From: Alphaproteobacteria bacterium
Lineage (GTDB): Bacteria > Pseudomonadota > Alphaproteobacteria > GCA-2731375
Direction of reading: 5' to 3'
Assembly (NCBI GenBank): GCA_021776235.1
Contig: JAJFGG010000161.1
Span: 124,001-188,000 of the forward strand
Length of the DNA stretch: 64,000 nt
Part shown: piece after piece, positions 53,613-60,501 of the stretch
How positions within the stretch are numbered: the stretch's first letter is position 1
How the letters are laid out: every line of letters starts with the position of its first letter
Program-made: the position numbers and the translations under genes
The notes under the pieces: generated by a model
Told to the model about the DNA's origin: nothing
Database searches by the model: none
What the model saw: only the letters and a program-made list of their open reading frames with translations

Positions 53613-54815
53613 ATGACAATCAAGCAGCGGCTTTATGATTTGTTGGAGGGCGGTAACCGGACCAACTTCAGCCACCGCCTGATAGATATCCTGCTTAGTC
53701 TCTTGATTATCTGCAACGTCCTGTCGGTGGCGCTGGAATCGATGCCCCTCATCGAGGCCGCGCATGTCACCGGTTTTGCCATATTCGAGATTTTCTCTTT
53801 GGCCGTCTTCACCATCGAATACGTCACCCGCCTTTGGGTCTGTACAGAACACCTGCCACTGAAACGCCTGCGCGCCAGTGAAGCGCGGCGGCGTTACGCG
53901 CTTTCGCCCTTCATGATCATCGACCTGCTGGCGATCCTGCCGTCCCTGCTGGTTAGCTTTATCGGTATGGATTTGCGCTTCCTGCGCATCTTTCGCCTGT
54001 TGCGCCTTTTGAAACTGGCCCGTTATTCGCCGACCATCATCACTCTGGGGCGGGTGCTCTATAACGAACGCCGGGCTCTGGGCGCCGTCGTCATTATCAT
54101 GTTCGGTCTGTTAATGCTGTCGGCCTCGATCATGACGATCATCGAGGCTGAAGCGCAGCCGGAGGCTTTCGGCTCAATTCCCGCCTCCATGTGGTGGGCG
54201 CTGGCCACCCTGTCCACGGTGGGCTATGGCGACGTGGTGCCTATCACCGCCCTGGGGCGGATCTTTGGCGGCATCGTAACCCTGTTGGGCGTTGCCATGT
54301 ATGCCCTGCCCATTGCCATCATCGCCTCGGGCTTCACGAATGAAAGCCGGCGGCGGGATTTTGTCATCACCTGGGGCATGGTGGCGCGGGTGCCCTTGTT
54401 CGCCAAACTGGATCCGGTCCTGTTGGCCAAGATCGGCGGCCTGCTGCGTGCCAAATCCGTGCCCTCGGGTTACGAAATTGTCCATCGCGGGCAACCAGCG
54501 GATAGCATGTACTTCGTCGTCTCGGGGGAAGTGGTCATCGATCTTGACGATCATCGCGTAAGCCTGGAAGAGGGTGACTTCTTTGGCGAACTCGCCTTGT
54601 TGCAGGATACCCATCGGCGCGCCCATGCCTTTGCTCTGACAGAATGCCGTTTGATGCAGTTGATGAAATCCGATTTCCACGGCCTGATGGAAGCAGAACC
54701 GAAACTGCGCGAGGAAATTGCCGCCGTGGCCGCCGAACGCCTGCGCGAGAGCGAATGGTCTCACGGCGACATCCCTGACGAAGAAATCCGCGACCAGCCG
54801 ATCCAGGGGGAATAG
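53613..54815 (+). CDS. Voltage-gated-type K+ channel with C-terminal cyclic-nucleotide-binding domain
   Basis: 400 aa; S4-like RFLRIFRLLRLLKLARYSPT, selectivity filter TLSTVGYGDVVPIT, CNBD SGEVVIDLDDHRVSLEEGDFFGELALLQDTHRRAHAFALTECRLMQL. Confidence 0.92.
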   Translation: MTIKQRLYDLLEGGNRTNFSHRLIDILLSLLIICNVLSVALESMPLIEAAHVTGFAIFEIFSLAVFTIEYVTRLWVCTEHLPLKRLRASEARRRYALSPFMIIDLLAILPSLLVSFIGMDLRFLRIFRLLRLLKLARYSPTIITLGRVLYNERRALGAVVIIMFGLLMLSASIMTIIEAEAQPEAFGSIPASMWWALATLSTVGYGDVVPITALGRIFGGIVTLLGVAMYALPIAIIASGFTNESRRRDFVITWGMVARVPLFAKLDPVLLAKIGGLLRAKSVPSGYEIVHRGQPADSMYFVVSGEVVIDLDDHRVSLEEGDFFGELALLQDTHRRAHAFALTECRLMQLMKSDFHGLMEAEPKLREEIAAVAAERLRESEWSHGDIPDEEIRDQPIQGE

Positions 54816-55256
54816 GTTGGTATTGCGTACCGAGTACTGTGCAGTAAAAAGACCAAGCCCCCACTCTTTCAAGCTCAAGGCCCGCGTACACAGATCCTTT
54901 TGTTCATAGGCGGCCGGGTCTATACACGTACCCTGCCATTAAGTGGTTCGACTGTAATGCTTAAATTTTGTTGTGTTACGAAAAGCCCCACACAGCTGCA
55001 TTTCCATCCGTAAAACGTCCCTAGACTCGCGATAGTGACTAGCGTGAGGGCTATGGTTTGAGCAAATAGCCGCAGTCTGCGCCCATTGACAATTATCCTG
55101 CATACTAGTTAGCCTTAATTGCATAAACGAGGCGCGGCTACCGTATTCATTGAACGGATTTGACGATGGCTAATACAGCGCTCCGTCTGTCGCATGATAT
55201 TTGCAAACAAGGATTGGATATAGCGAAACACACTCGGCTAAAAGGAGGAGGAAATA

Positions 55257-57575
55257 ATGGCGATCGTCCAGGCAACCGTTCCGCAGGCACACCTTGCCAC
55301 AGCCATGGGGGCGCCGAACCAGCTACTGGTGGAGTACAACTCGAACATTTTGTTACCGGTTCCCGGGCCGAAGCTATTTGTTCGATTGCGTCGGAATTTC
55401 TTGCGTGCGGTGATGGATCTGAACGAGTTTCTCGTTTTCGCCGAAGACGCGCGTGAGTTCTTCGCGGCGGGCGGGAGGCTTGATTTTCCCAGGACTATCG
55501 ATCCTTTTGCCGTTGCTGTGCGGAATAGTGCGTCTCCCTACGAAAAAACCATGGCGTCCTCGGCGCGTGATGCGATGGACAAGGAACGATACGGGACATC
55601 CCGTGCGAAGCCTTCGACGGTCGCGACAAGTTTCCGGGAACCTGCCAGGCATATGAAAGAGGCCCTACTGGTCCGGCTCGCCAACGCCAACTACGTGTTT
55701 CACGAAATGTTCGAAGCCGGCCTCCTGACGAGTTCACCGACCCTGTTTGACGCCGACTTCGCGAAGGCCAGAAACTTCAGTGCACGCTGTGTGCTGGTTC
55801 TGCAAATTCTTGTCGCCAACCGCAAGGCGCATGTCCCCCGGACGGTGACGAATATGATGATCCTACTCGCCGATCAGGCCCTGGCGGAAGCACGGCAGAA
55901 TTTTCCAGGCTCCTTGCACAAGGGGTTCATAGGTCTCTCTGCGCCGACCAAGAAACTGCTTGTCCAGTGGTTGGTCGCGTTCCACCTGGAAAGCGCCGCT
56001 TCAGGAGTCAAGGCATTCGCAGTGGACCTAATGCCCGACTTGGGTTTTGCGCCCAAGTACTTCCCACATGAGTGGGCGATGAACCGTCGCGAGCGCATGA
56101 AGCTTGGTTTAGGGACGCCGGAGTTGCGGGGGCCGTTGGCGACCGAGCCGGTTCCGCCCCAGGGCACCTATCGCCGGGAAGACTACGTTGCATCGCGGGA
56201 TGAGGTCACCCTGGTGACCGCCGAACGACTCGGCAGGACCGTGCAGGAATCGCTGACCGTGGGCACGAGTTCGCTACGCCAGGCGGTCGACTCGCTATAC
56301 TACTCCGGCGGCGGTACCCTCAATCAGCTTACGGCGGCGGCGTCGAAGTCGCTGCTGGCCGAGGAGCGGCGTAGCCGCGTGCTCTCGATAATTCAGGAGT
56401 TCAGCGAGTCGCGCGAAAGCGCCACCATCGAGGCTCGCGCCCGTAGCACTGCCTCGACGGTCGTGCGCGAGGCCGCTGGCATCGATTCGAAGCTGGCGGC
56501 AACCCATCACCGGTTCAAGGCCGTCCTGCCCGTCGACGTGTCCGTCGAGATGTACGACGCGGGATTGACCTGGAGCCCGCGCGTGTTCAACCCATTTTTC
56601 AGGCTCCATAGGGCGATCCGTAAGACCTATGCCGACGCCAAAGCATCGCATGTCATGCAGTTCTATGTTCCCGAGCCGCTAACGCCAGCCATCAGTTACG
56701 AAACCTACTACATCTACACCACGCTCAGTCTGAAGAGCGCGGACGACGTTCACTACGTCACAAAGTCGTTCCACTTTCACCTCGAAGTTACCGATCGTCA
56801 GGATTATCCGGATTTCGCCAACTCTTACGCCGAATTTACGCAAGAGGACACATGGCGTAATGATTCCGATAACTGGGATATTGGCTTCGAGATCAATAAT
56901 TACAGCGGCGGGACCATTCGCGGCGAGGTTTGGGTCGAGATGGAAGACGAAGACCACTGGGAAGGCTCAGTTTACATCTCGATCCCGGTGCTCCGCTACG
57001 ACCAAGGAACGGTAAACAGACTGGCGGATTTCCAGGTTGAGATGCGCGACTACGAATACCAGCGCCAGGCCTTGGAGGCCCAGGCGCACCAGTACGCGCA
57101 TATCAAGCAGCGAGAGTTCATCGAGCGCCACGAACGGCTCACCGAGCTGCAGAAAATTGTGTTCGAGGCGCTTATTCGCCGCGTTTGTTCGTCGAGCCTG
57201 TCTTCGAATCTTTCGTACTATAAGGAGATCATATCGCGGTGCATTGATTGGCCCCACGCCAAGATTGAGTTCGAGGCCGCACCGCTGGACGCCCTCATAT
57301 TCCCTGACTTCCCAGCCGACCATTTCGTCAACAGCCCGGCCGTCCGGTTCTTCCTGCCAATTATTCGCAGCGCGGAAACAACGTTGCTCGACACGCTGAC
57401 GGACACGGGCTCATTTCTACTGCGCAATCACGTCGAGAACACAGTTCGCAGGATAGACGCTGTCCGTGATCGCCTGGCGGCGAACGGTCCGGATCAACTC
57501 GACCGGTTTTCAACCGAGATGGTGATTGGCGAGCATATCGAAGCTGTCATGAGTGAACATGACCATGCGAGCTAG
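55257..57575 (+). CDS. Uncharacterised 772-aa protein, first gene of a two-gene module
   Basis: Long ORF with strong Shine-Dalgarno AAAGGAGGAGG just upstream; no recognised family; 3-nt gap to the next gene. Confidence 0.88.
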   Translation: MAIVQATVPQAHLATAMGAPNQLLVEYNSNILLPVPGPKLFVRLRRNFLRAVMDLNEFLVFAEDAREFFAAGGRLDFPRTIDPFAVAVRNSASPYEKTMASSARDAMDKERYGTSRAKPSTVATSFREPARHMKEALLVRLANANYVFHEMFEAGLLTSSPTLFDADFAKARNFSARCVLVLQILVANRKAHVPRTVTNMMILLADQALAEARQNFPGSLHKGFIGLSAPTKKLLVQWLVAFHLESAASGVKAFAVDLMPDLGFAPKYFPHEWAMNRRERMKLGLGTPELRGPLATEPVPPQGTYRREDYVASRDEVTLVTAERLGRTVQESLTVGTSSLRQAVDSLYYSGGGTLNQLTAAASKSLLAEERRSRVLSIIQEFSESRESATIEARARSTASTVVREAAGIDSKLAATHHRFKAVLPVDVSVEMYDAGLTWSPRVFNPFFRLHRAIRKTYADAKASHVMQFYVPEPLTPAISYETYYIYTTLSLKSADDVHYVTKSFHFHLEVTDRQDYPDFANSYAEFTQEDTWRNDSDNWDIGFEINNYSGGTIRGEVWVEMEDEDHWEGSVYISIPVLRYDQGTVNRLADFQVEMRDYEYQRQALEAQAHQYAHIKQREFIERHERLTELQKIVFEALIRRVCSSSLSSNLSYYKEIISRCIDWPHAKIEFEAAPLDALIFPDFPADHFVNSPAVRFFLPIIRSAETTLLDTLTDTGSFLLRNHVENTVRRIDAVRDRLAANGPDQLDRFSTEMVIGEHIEAVMSEHDHAS

Positions 57576-57578
57576 GTC

Positions 57579-59132
57579 ATGAAATCGATCGAATACCCGA
57601 ATGTTGTTTCGGACCTTGTCGTTATTGAGTTTCGTGGAGGCGGGCGGGTTGGTTTCACGGTACGCCCTCTCGGTGCCGGTTATTACCGGCTCGTCATCTG
57701 GCCGGAAGGCCTGCCGGATCCGTCCCTGTTCGCACATGCTTTGTTTTGCTTTGAGTCGACCGAGGGCGAACCGCTTCACGCGGTGGTCGATATGCGAGGG
57801 TATCGGGCGCGACCGTTCGGCGTGTGGCAATGGGCCCTGCTGCCGACTTCGCCATCATCGTCGCCGCTGGATGATCTGGCGCGGGCGGCGACAGGGTTTG
57901 ACGTCCAAGCCCGCAACCGGTTCCGGGTGTCCACGGATGAGCCGCGCGGCGAGGTCCGGTGTGTTGCGTGGAGTTGCCATCAGCCATACGAGACAGAAGC
58001 GGGCCGGCGCGCGGTCCTGCAGGAAGATGCCGCCGAGATCCTTGAGTGGTACGCGGCAGAAGTCGACGCCTACCAGCCGCACGTTGTCTGGGGTCAGGGC
58101 GATACGGGTTACTCGGACGGCACGGACGCGGTCGACTTTTCAAACCAAGTGTATGACCAGGGAGACTGGTATCGCAATATCGAGAACCGGACGTGGTTGC
58201 GGCAGGAGTATCGCCGCATGTACCGGCATTTCTGGAGCCTGCCGCAGATGCGCCGCGTGTTGTCGGCGTTTCCGCATCTGTTCATGTGGGACGACCACGA
58301 AATCCACGATGGCTGGGGCAGCGAGGGAAGAGATTTCCAACCGGGCAACATCGAGATGTTCCGGATCGCCAAGGAGGTCGCGAACGAGTACATACTGAAC
58401 GCCGGGCCGCGGGTGCGCCCGGACGGCGCGGAAGCGCACCAGGCCTATTTGATGGGGCCAATGGCGGCTTTCATCTTCGATACCCGGTCGACGCGCAACT
58501 ACGAAGCGCCAAGGGATCGGCTCATCTCGCGCGAACAGTATGAAGATTTCGTCGGCTTCCTACGATCGCTACGCGAAGCGACCAGCGTACGCCATCTTGT
58601 AACATGCACTACGGTGCCGTTCATAAGTCTGCGGACCTGGGTCACCGCGTTGGCGTCTCGCGCACCGAACGCCGTCAATAACACGCTACTTACCGGAATT
58701 CGCGACGATGTCCGCGATGCATGGAATTCACCTGGTAACATCAGCACGCTGACGGAAATTCTGGCGGCGCTTCGCTGGTTCATGCGCGAACGGCCCGATG
58801 TGAGCGTTAGCAACATCTCCGGCGATATCCATGTTGCTCAGGCCTACGAACTCCACATCCCAGGCGCGCCGCGTCCCGTCTATCAGGTCACGACGTCGGC
58901 AATAACGAACCGTCACCACCCGCCTGACCTGGTTGCTTACCTAGCCGAGGTTGGCGATGTTGAAGGCGATACCGAATACGTCGAAGGCATCGGTCACGTA
59001 CGGCGGATCTGGAGCACGATCACAGACCCCAATGTGCTGTTGATGCAGTTCCGAACCGATGAGGCAAATTATACACTTAAGGTTTGGGACACGGAAAACC
59101 CTCGCGAAAAAGAACTCTCGTTAAGCGCATAA
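57579..59132 (+). CDS. PhoD-like metallophosphatase/phosphodiesterase, no signal peptide
   Basis: 517 aa; VAWSCHQPYE, WGQGDTGYSDG, MRRVLSAFPHLFMWDDHEIHDGWGSEG, FIFDTRSTRN, SNISGDIHVAQAYEL, VTTSAITN match the PhoD-like metal-site pattern. Confidence 0.82.
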   Translation: MKSIEYPNVVSDLVVIEFRGGGRVGFTVRPLGAGYYRLVIWPEGLPDPSLFAHALFCFESTEGEPLHAVVDMRGYRARPFGVWQWALLPTSPSSSPLDDLARAATGFDVQARNRFRVSTDEPRGEVRCVAWSCHQPYETEAGRRAVLQEDAAEILEWYAAEVDAYQPHVVWGQGDTGYSDGTDAVDFSNQVYDQGDWYRNIENRTWLRQEYRRMYRHFWSLPQMRRVLSAFPHLFMWDDHEIHDGWGSEGRDFQPGNIEMFRIAKEVANEYILNAGPRVRPDGAEAHQAYLMGPMAAFIFDTRSTRNYEAPRDRLISREQYEDFVGFLRSLREATSVRHLVTCTTVPFISLRTWVTALASRAPNAVNNTLLTGIRDDVRDAWNSPGNISTLTEILAALRWFMRERPDVSVSNISGDIHVAQAYELHIPGAPRPVYQVTTSAITNRHHPPDLVAYLAEVGDVEGDTEYVEGIGHVRRIWSTITDPNVLLMQFRTDEANYTLKVWDTENPREKELSLSA

Positions 59133-59230
59133 CGTCCAAAGAAACGCGACGGCCCCAGGCCAAGTGCGGGGTTGGGGCTTGTTGTTTGAATCTTATCGGC
59201 CATAGAGCCTGCCCGGTAAACAAAAAAAGT

Positions 59231-59258
59231 CCGGGCCCGCCAATTATGGCGAGCCCGG
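59231..59258. terminator. Bidirectional rho-independent terminator between the two-gene module and icd
   Basis: CCGGGCCCGCC-AATTAT-GGCGAGCCCGG (11-bp stem, one mismatch); followed by T-rich CGTCGTTTTCTGTTT on +, and by an ACTTTTTTTG tract on -. Confidence 0.85.
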
Positions 59259-59286
59259 CGTCGTTTTCTGTTTCAGGCTTGACTGT

Positions 59287-60501
59287 TCAAGCCATGGCCT
59301 TCTGCAGGTTCTCGTCCAGAGTATCCAGGAACTGGTTGGTGGTCAGCCATTTTTGCTGGGGTCCGATCAGGATCGCCAGATCCTTGGTCATGGCGCCGGA
59401 TTCCACGGTTTGCACACAGACCTGTTCCAGGGTCTCGGCGAACTGTGTGACCGCCGGCGTATCATCCATACGGCCGCGGTGCTTCAGTCCGCCGGTCCAG
59501 GCAAAGATCGAGGCGATGGGAGTGGTTGATGTCTCCTCGCCCTTCTGATGCTGGCGGAAATGCCGTGTGACGGTGCCATGCGCCGCCTCGGCCTCCACCG
59601 TCTTGCCATCGGGGGTCATCAGGATCGAGGTCATCAGGCCCAGCGAGCCGAAGCCCTGGGCCACCGTGTCGGACTGCACATCGCCATCATAGTTCTTGCA
59701 GGCCCAGATGAACTCGCCTTCCCATTTCAGGGCGCAGGCCACCATGTCATCGATCAGGCGATGCTCGTAGGTCAGGCCCTCCGCCTTGTAGGCATCGGCG
59801 AATTCCGCCTCGAACACTTCCTCGAACAGATCCTTGAAGCGGCCGTCATAGGCCTTCAGGATGGTGTTCTTGGTGGACAGATAGACCGGCCATTTGCGCT
59901 GCGCGCCATAGCTTAGACAGGCGCGGGCAAAATCCCGGATCGAGTCATCCAGATTGTACATGCCCATGGCGATACCGGCGGAGGGGAAATCAAAGACCTC
60001 CCGCTCAATCGTCTCGCCGCCGCCCTCGGGCTCGAACTTCATGGTCAACTTGCCCTTGCCCGGCACCAGGAAATCGGTGGCGCGGTACTGGTCACCATAG
60101 GCATGACGCCCAATCACGATGGGATGGGTCCAACCGGGCACCAGGCGGGGGACGTTCTGGCAGATGATCGGTTCGCGAAAAACCGTGCCACCCAGAATGT
60201 TTCGGATGGTGCCGTTGGGCGAACGCCACATGGACTTCAGGCCGAATTCCTCGACCCGCTCCTCGTCCGGCGTAATGGTGGCGCATTTGACGCCGACGCC
60301 GTATTCCTTGATGGCCTCGGCGCAATCGATGGTAATCTGGTCGTCGGTTTCGTCCCGCTTCTCGATTCCCAGATCGTAATATTTCAGATCTACGTCTAGG
60401 TAGGGCAGTATCAATTTTTCCTTGATAAAGGCCCAGATAATGCGCGTCATTTCATCCCCGTCGAGTTCCACGACAGGGGTCTTCACCTTGATCTTGCTCA
60501 T
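59287..60501 (-). CDS. icd: NADP-dependent isocitrate dehydrogenase
   Basis: Start ATG 60501, 404 aa; [65 protein letters not shown]. Confidence 0.96.

Follow-up and report, generated by a model that had tools for sequence, protein, structure and literature searches.

A rare, undescribed two-gene unit pairing a large orphan protein with a non-exported PhoD-like phosphoesterase in an alphaproteobacterium

A gene for a 772-aa orphan protein (gene A) and a gene for a 517-aa PhoD-like phosphoesterase (gene B) form a real, rare, conserved and undescribed two-gene unit, and our literature searches brought up no account of genes paired in this way. The unit provides a concrete gene pair for a non-exported member of the PhoD family, whose enzymes are usually treated as phosphate scavengers. 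It also draws attention to a large protein superfamily absent from the family libraries used here and, if the link to that superfamily is true, to a modular system of carriers and hydrolases that extends over several phyla.

The gene pair and its conservation

The window, that is, the whole stretch of 64,000 nucleotides that was analysed, is part of contig C70 of a 6.36-Mb genome. Gene A occupies positions 55257..57575 of the plus strand and is preceded by a strong Shine-Dalgarno sequence, aaaaggaggagg (55240..55251, plus strand), which ends 5 nt before the ATG at 55257. The TAG stop codon of A ends at 57575 and the ATG of B (57579..59132, plus strand) follows after a 3-nt gap; reading frames, ribosome-binding site and spacing are all as described in the first-pass annotation of this DNA. 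GC and GC3 of both genes are similar to those of their neighbours.

A second instance of the pair lies in a distant genome. A pattern scan with B across 85,462 species genomes yielded one full-length relative, on QKDN01000020.1 (L016), from the MAG Epsilonproteobacteria bacterium SZUA-451, a taxonomic label that rests on the MAG's own title. Just upstream of this B homologue is a 770-aa gene, in the same order as in the window and with a 4-nt overlap of the ATGA type; its product can be aligned with A over the entire length (24% identity, BLASTP E=3e-54), and the two B proteins share 34% identity over their full length. An ordinary PhoD-like enzyme lying by chance beside an unrelated orphan ORF would fit the rarity of the pair and its absence from sampled relatives, but the recurrence of the same full-length pair in a distant MAG, with the same order and with overlapping start and stop codons, essentially refutes chance adjacency, which we regard as very improbable. 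The pairing that had been proposed from a single locus thus gains gene-neighbourhood evidence, B standing beside A in both of the genomes in which A is known, few as two instances are. The B homologue of the MAG (L016:5914-7818) has an insertion in its PhoD domain with a strongly hydrophobic stretch, at about residues 374-402, that is absent from the B of the window.

No further A was found among 14 genomes of its own family, 15 of its order, 211 of its class, 399 of its phylum and 398 of the phylum of the MAG (about 1,000 genomes sampled in all), nor in the plasmids, phages and viral contigs searched. Two weak matches, in G305 (9e-4) and G101 (0.004), are both short with an internal stop and were rejected as chance matches. 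For B, the PHROG, phage and viral-contig searches gave a weak match to a PHROG of unknown function and nothing else. Because genome-wide pattern scans detect close relatives only, the true number of pairs is probably larger.

The orphan status claimed earlier for A agrees with database searches, in which A had zero Pfam matches at E<=1, matched no NCBIfam, PADLOC or PHROG family and, as a profile built with its homologue from the MAG, matched nothing in the PDB. Resemblances to MppQ, PTB and a sigma factor were all weak and were dismissed as chance. By hydropathy, A has neither a hydrophobic N-terminal stretch nor an RR motif. An AlphaFold model of A (mean pLDDT 33), made from A and the single homologue and usable for rough secondary structure only, predicts a helix-strand-helix order, with a helical N-terminal half, a beta domain and a helical C-terminal domain. 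Residues 481-579 (56697..56993, plus strand), just after a VPEP motif at 472-475, are predicted to be rich in beta-strands from this very low-confidence model and the sequence. Residues 583-772 (57003..57572, plus strand) are predicted, at similarly low confidence, to form a long helix and the C-terminal domain, which also has a weak profile match to the wider superfamily described below; they contain the clearest conserved motifs of A, SYY..II.RCIDW and HF.N..A.RFFL.

The PhoD-like enzyme

Protein B matches the PhoD family PF09423 with 48.5 bits, above the gathering cut-off of 27, and PhoD_2 (PF19050) with 30 bits against a cut-off of 22, the best stretch of the latter match aligning just 49 of 543 profile positions. 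Tat-dependent export is usual in the PhoD family, without being strictly defining. B has no RR motif and no hydrophobic N-terminal segment by hydropathy, and no signal peptide is seen, which upholds its earlier description as a PhoD-like enzyme that is not exported. A second PhoD-family gene of the source genome (G000:C49:89971-90696, L001) scores higher, at 97 bits.

The PhoD of B. subtilis binds one Fe and two Ca ions, and C180A, D265A, N271A, N272A and D436A each abolish its activity (PMC4223295). In B, ligands were mapped by motif order, except for Asp238 and Asp239, which align with Asp265 and Asp266 of B. subtilis PhoD (2yeq alignment). Cys133 in AWSCHQPYE (57975..57977, plus strand), invariant between the two B proteins, is the apparent equivalent of the Fe ligand Cys180 (PMC4223295). 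Further predicted metal ligands are Asp175 and Tyr178 in the GDTGY motif (58098..58112, plus strand; PMC4223295) and Asp416 and His418 in the GDIH motif (58821..58832, plus strand). Within WDDHEIHDGWGSE (58287..58325, plus strand), Asp238 and Asp239 are conserved, and Asp244 and Gly245 replace Asn271 and Asn272 (mutations in PMC4223295). The metal-ligand pattern reported in the first-pass annotation is therefore retained in part: the motifs for the Fe3+ and CaA ligands are kept (Cys133, Asp175, Tyr178, Asp238, Asp239, Asp416 and His418), whereas of the CaB ligands Asn271/Asn272, with Asn or Asp expected at the latter position, one is lost, Gly245 standing at the position of Asn272. The same DG occurs in the B homologue of the MAG and in another PhoD-like protein (L017). 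B is likely to be catalytically active, although the replacement of a CaB ligand makes this less than certain, and its CaB site may differ from that of PhoD.

The retained Fe and CaA motifs, together with the release of phosphate from organic compounds by the PhoD family (PMC4223295), would suit a role in metabolism or phosphate salvage, in which B frees phosphate or processes a cytoplasmic phosphodiester intermediate and A is a structural subunit. However, A far exceeds known phosphatase subunits in size, the unit is rare and accessory, and phosphate regulon genes were not seen nearby, so that we consider such a role distinctly unlikely.

A wider superfamily and its link to A

A presumed family consensus suggested by the C-terminus of A, TELKK...FFEQAFEWENMTY...FLQAGAARVQVPVRPGFE, served as a search query. 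It matched 15 plasmid records and more proteins in genomes and viral contigs. The superfamily proteins (790-1270 aa) have no Pfam family; examples are WP_324764734 of S. meliloti and WP_000344219 of B. thuringiensis. Superfamily loci (L025-L031, L034-L036, L040-L051) come from Bacillus, actinomycetes, rhizobia, Bacteroidota, a cyanobacterium and a haloarchaeon.

When A was compared with the superfamily by hhalign, the best alignment fell at the place that had been predicted before the search. With 18 members, the score of 35.0 exceeded the highest value from 700 block shuffles, 30.6, and under another match setting a score of 37.6 compared with at most 33.8 in 900 shuffles, the alignments being colinear over residues 500-711 of A. 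The corresponding p is 0.0005-0.004 (~1e-3), but the hhalign probability is ~10%, and the match is lost without context pseudocounts and sensitive to match-column rules. A search of A with the superfamily profile by hmmsearch was not significant. An AlphaFold model of the superfamily core, made with three sequences, has a mean pLDDT of 36 and is again informative for rough secondary structure only. The VPEP of A resembles the PEP motif of the superfamily. From the hhalign comparisons, A is a possible divergent representative of this broad VPEP/FEW superfamily, which has no earlier description; the link is suggestive only, and we consider homology fairly probable.

The superfamily loci resemble the A–B locus in their layout: a second gene lies directly downstream, after 3 nt for A and similarly in L025, L026, L028, L042 and L047. 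The neighbours include patatin and alpha/beta hydrolase genes, weak matches to Tox-MPTase4 and Ntox4, and small recurrent partner families. In Chryseobacterium-type loci (L029, L035, L036), the large protein is accompanied by an M15 peptidase (annotated in L029), a patatin and other orphans, and two of the three are on contigs in a viral collection. In Ensifer adhaerens, about 600 nt separate a superfamily member from a SIR2-like gene that lies downstream of it (L040:6242-7951).

That the large protein has patatin and weak matches to polymorphic-toxin domains as neighbours raises the possibility of a secreted or injected interbacterial effector, in which A would be the carrier in a polymorphic effector system delivered by a secretion machine and B the enzymatic effector. 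Against it, no secretion or injection genes were seen in the listed loci, B is not followed by an immunity gene, and the membership of A in the superfamily is itself no more than suggestive; we therefore hold an interbacterial role to be improbable.

Genomic context and origin

The genus as sampled retains alaS, icd and an ion channel gene at this locus, and the pair lies between the channel gene and icd. In the closest congener (G006), the stretch 54815..59290 is missing, the interval from 54814 to 59291 spanning 273 nt there. In G001 and G005 the same slot (L065-L068) is occupied by a 417-aa gene, and in G002 by a 261-aa gene. That congeners have this locus without the pair or with other genes in its place marks the pair as accessory, and it was thus either gained at the slot or lost repeatedly. 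Since the other sampled members of the family lack it while a distant MAG has it, gain by transfer is favoured, and the pair is probably a horizontally acquired, co-expressed module.

A bidirectional terminator had been thought to close the unit. The rho-independent terminator at 59231..59258, shared by convergence, is strong on the minus strand only, which is that of icd, and a related sequence adjoins icd in a congener without A and B (L067). A dedicated unit closed by this terminator is therefore not supported, and the element, rejected as a dedicated bidirectional terminator of the pair, belongs mainly to icd.

The accessory nature of the pair, its lack of an export signal and the sizes of its products, which fit a sensor and an effector, would also agree with anti-phage defence or abortive infection, in which A would detect an intruder and set off B to degrade nucleotides, nucleic acids or membrane phosphodiesters within the cell; the superfamily member upstream of the SIR2-like gene in L040 speaks for the same role. 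PADLOC, however, matches neither A nor B, the neighbours are alaS, the ion channel gene and icd with no defence genes nearby, and A is absent from the phages and plasmids searched. On balance, defence seems unlikely. The other roles raised in the first-pass annotation, nucleotide signalling and the assembly of a large complex, gain no support from these data.

Proposed role of the pair

The reading that we prefer, tentatively and at somewhat less than an even chance, is that of an accessory two-gene module with A as a targeting or membrane scaffold and B as its phosphodiesterase- or phospholipase-like effector. The two products would cooperate: A, as a large platform, would bind a target that is probably the surface of a membrane or of the cell envelope, and its catalytic partner B would cut phosphodiester bonds, most plausibly those of phospholipids or of another phosphodiester polymer. 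The phospholipase D of S. chromofuscus is a PhoD family member (PMC4223295), and lipids are therefore a plausible kind of substrate for B. Both AlphaFold models have a mean pLDDT below 37 and thus lend no fold support to a membrane or scaffold role of A.

Because superfamily members adjoin varied hydrolases, the module would work like a carrier-plus-effector pair if A belongs among them. The broader proposal that A is part of a widespread, undescribed superfamily of large carriers with interchangeable lipid- or phosphodiester-cutting enzymes (PhoD, patatin, alpha/beta hydrolase, toxin-like domains), and that the locus is a PhoD-armed version of a new modular effector system, is possible but clearly less likely than not.

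Comparison with known systems

Like the PhoD of B. subtilis (2YEQ) and the phospholipase D of S. chromofuscus, B has a PF09423 domain and the Cys, GDxxY, WDDHE and GDxH motifs. Unlike the PhoD family, it has no signal peptide, carries Gly in place of the CaB ligand Asn272, includes an N-terminal part beyond the Pfam match, and is encoded beside the gene of a large orphan protein. On Pseudomonas megaplasmids (L004:10196-13185), a PhoD-like gene immediately follows a gene of the phospholipase D family; these PhoD-like genes come without an A gene, and their products share 24-25% identity with two thirds of B. The PhoD genes of Pseudomonas and Paracoccus plasmids were accordingly rejected as members of the pair, no A gene adjoining them. 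The unnamed superfamily differs from the A–B pair in its second genes, none of those seen beside its members being a PhoD gene, whereas it resembles A in the apparent order of VPEP motif, beta region, long helix and helical C-terminal domain, in the second gene that usually follows, and in neighbours of which some are lipid-cleaving hydrolases.
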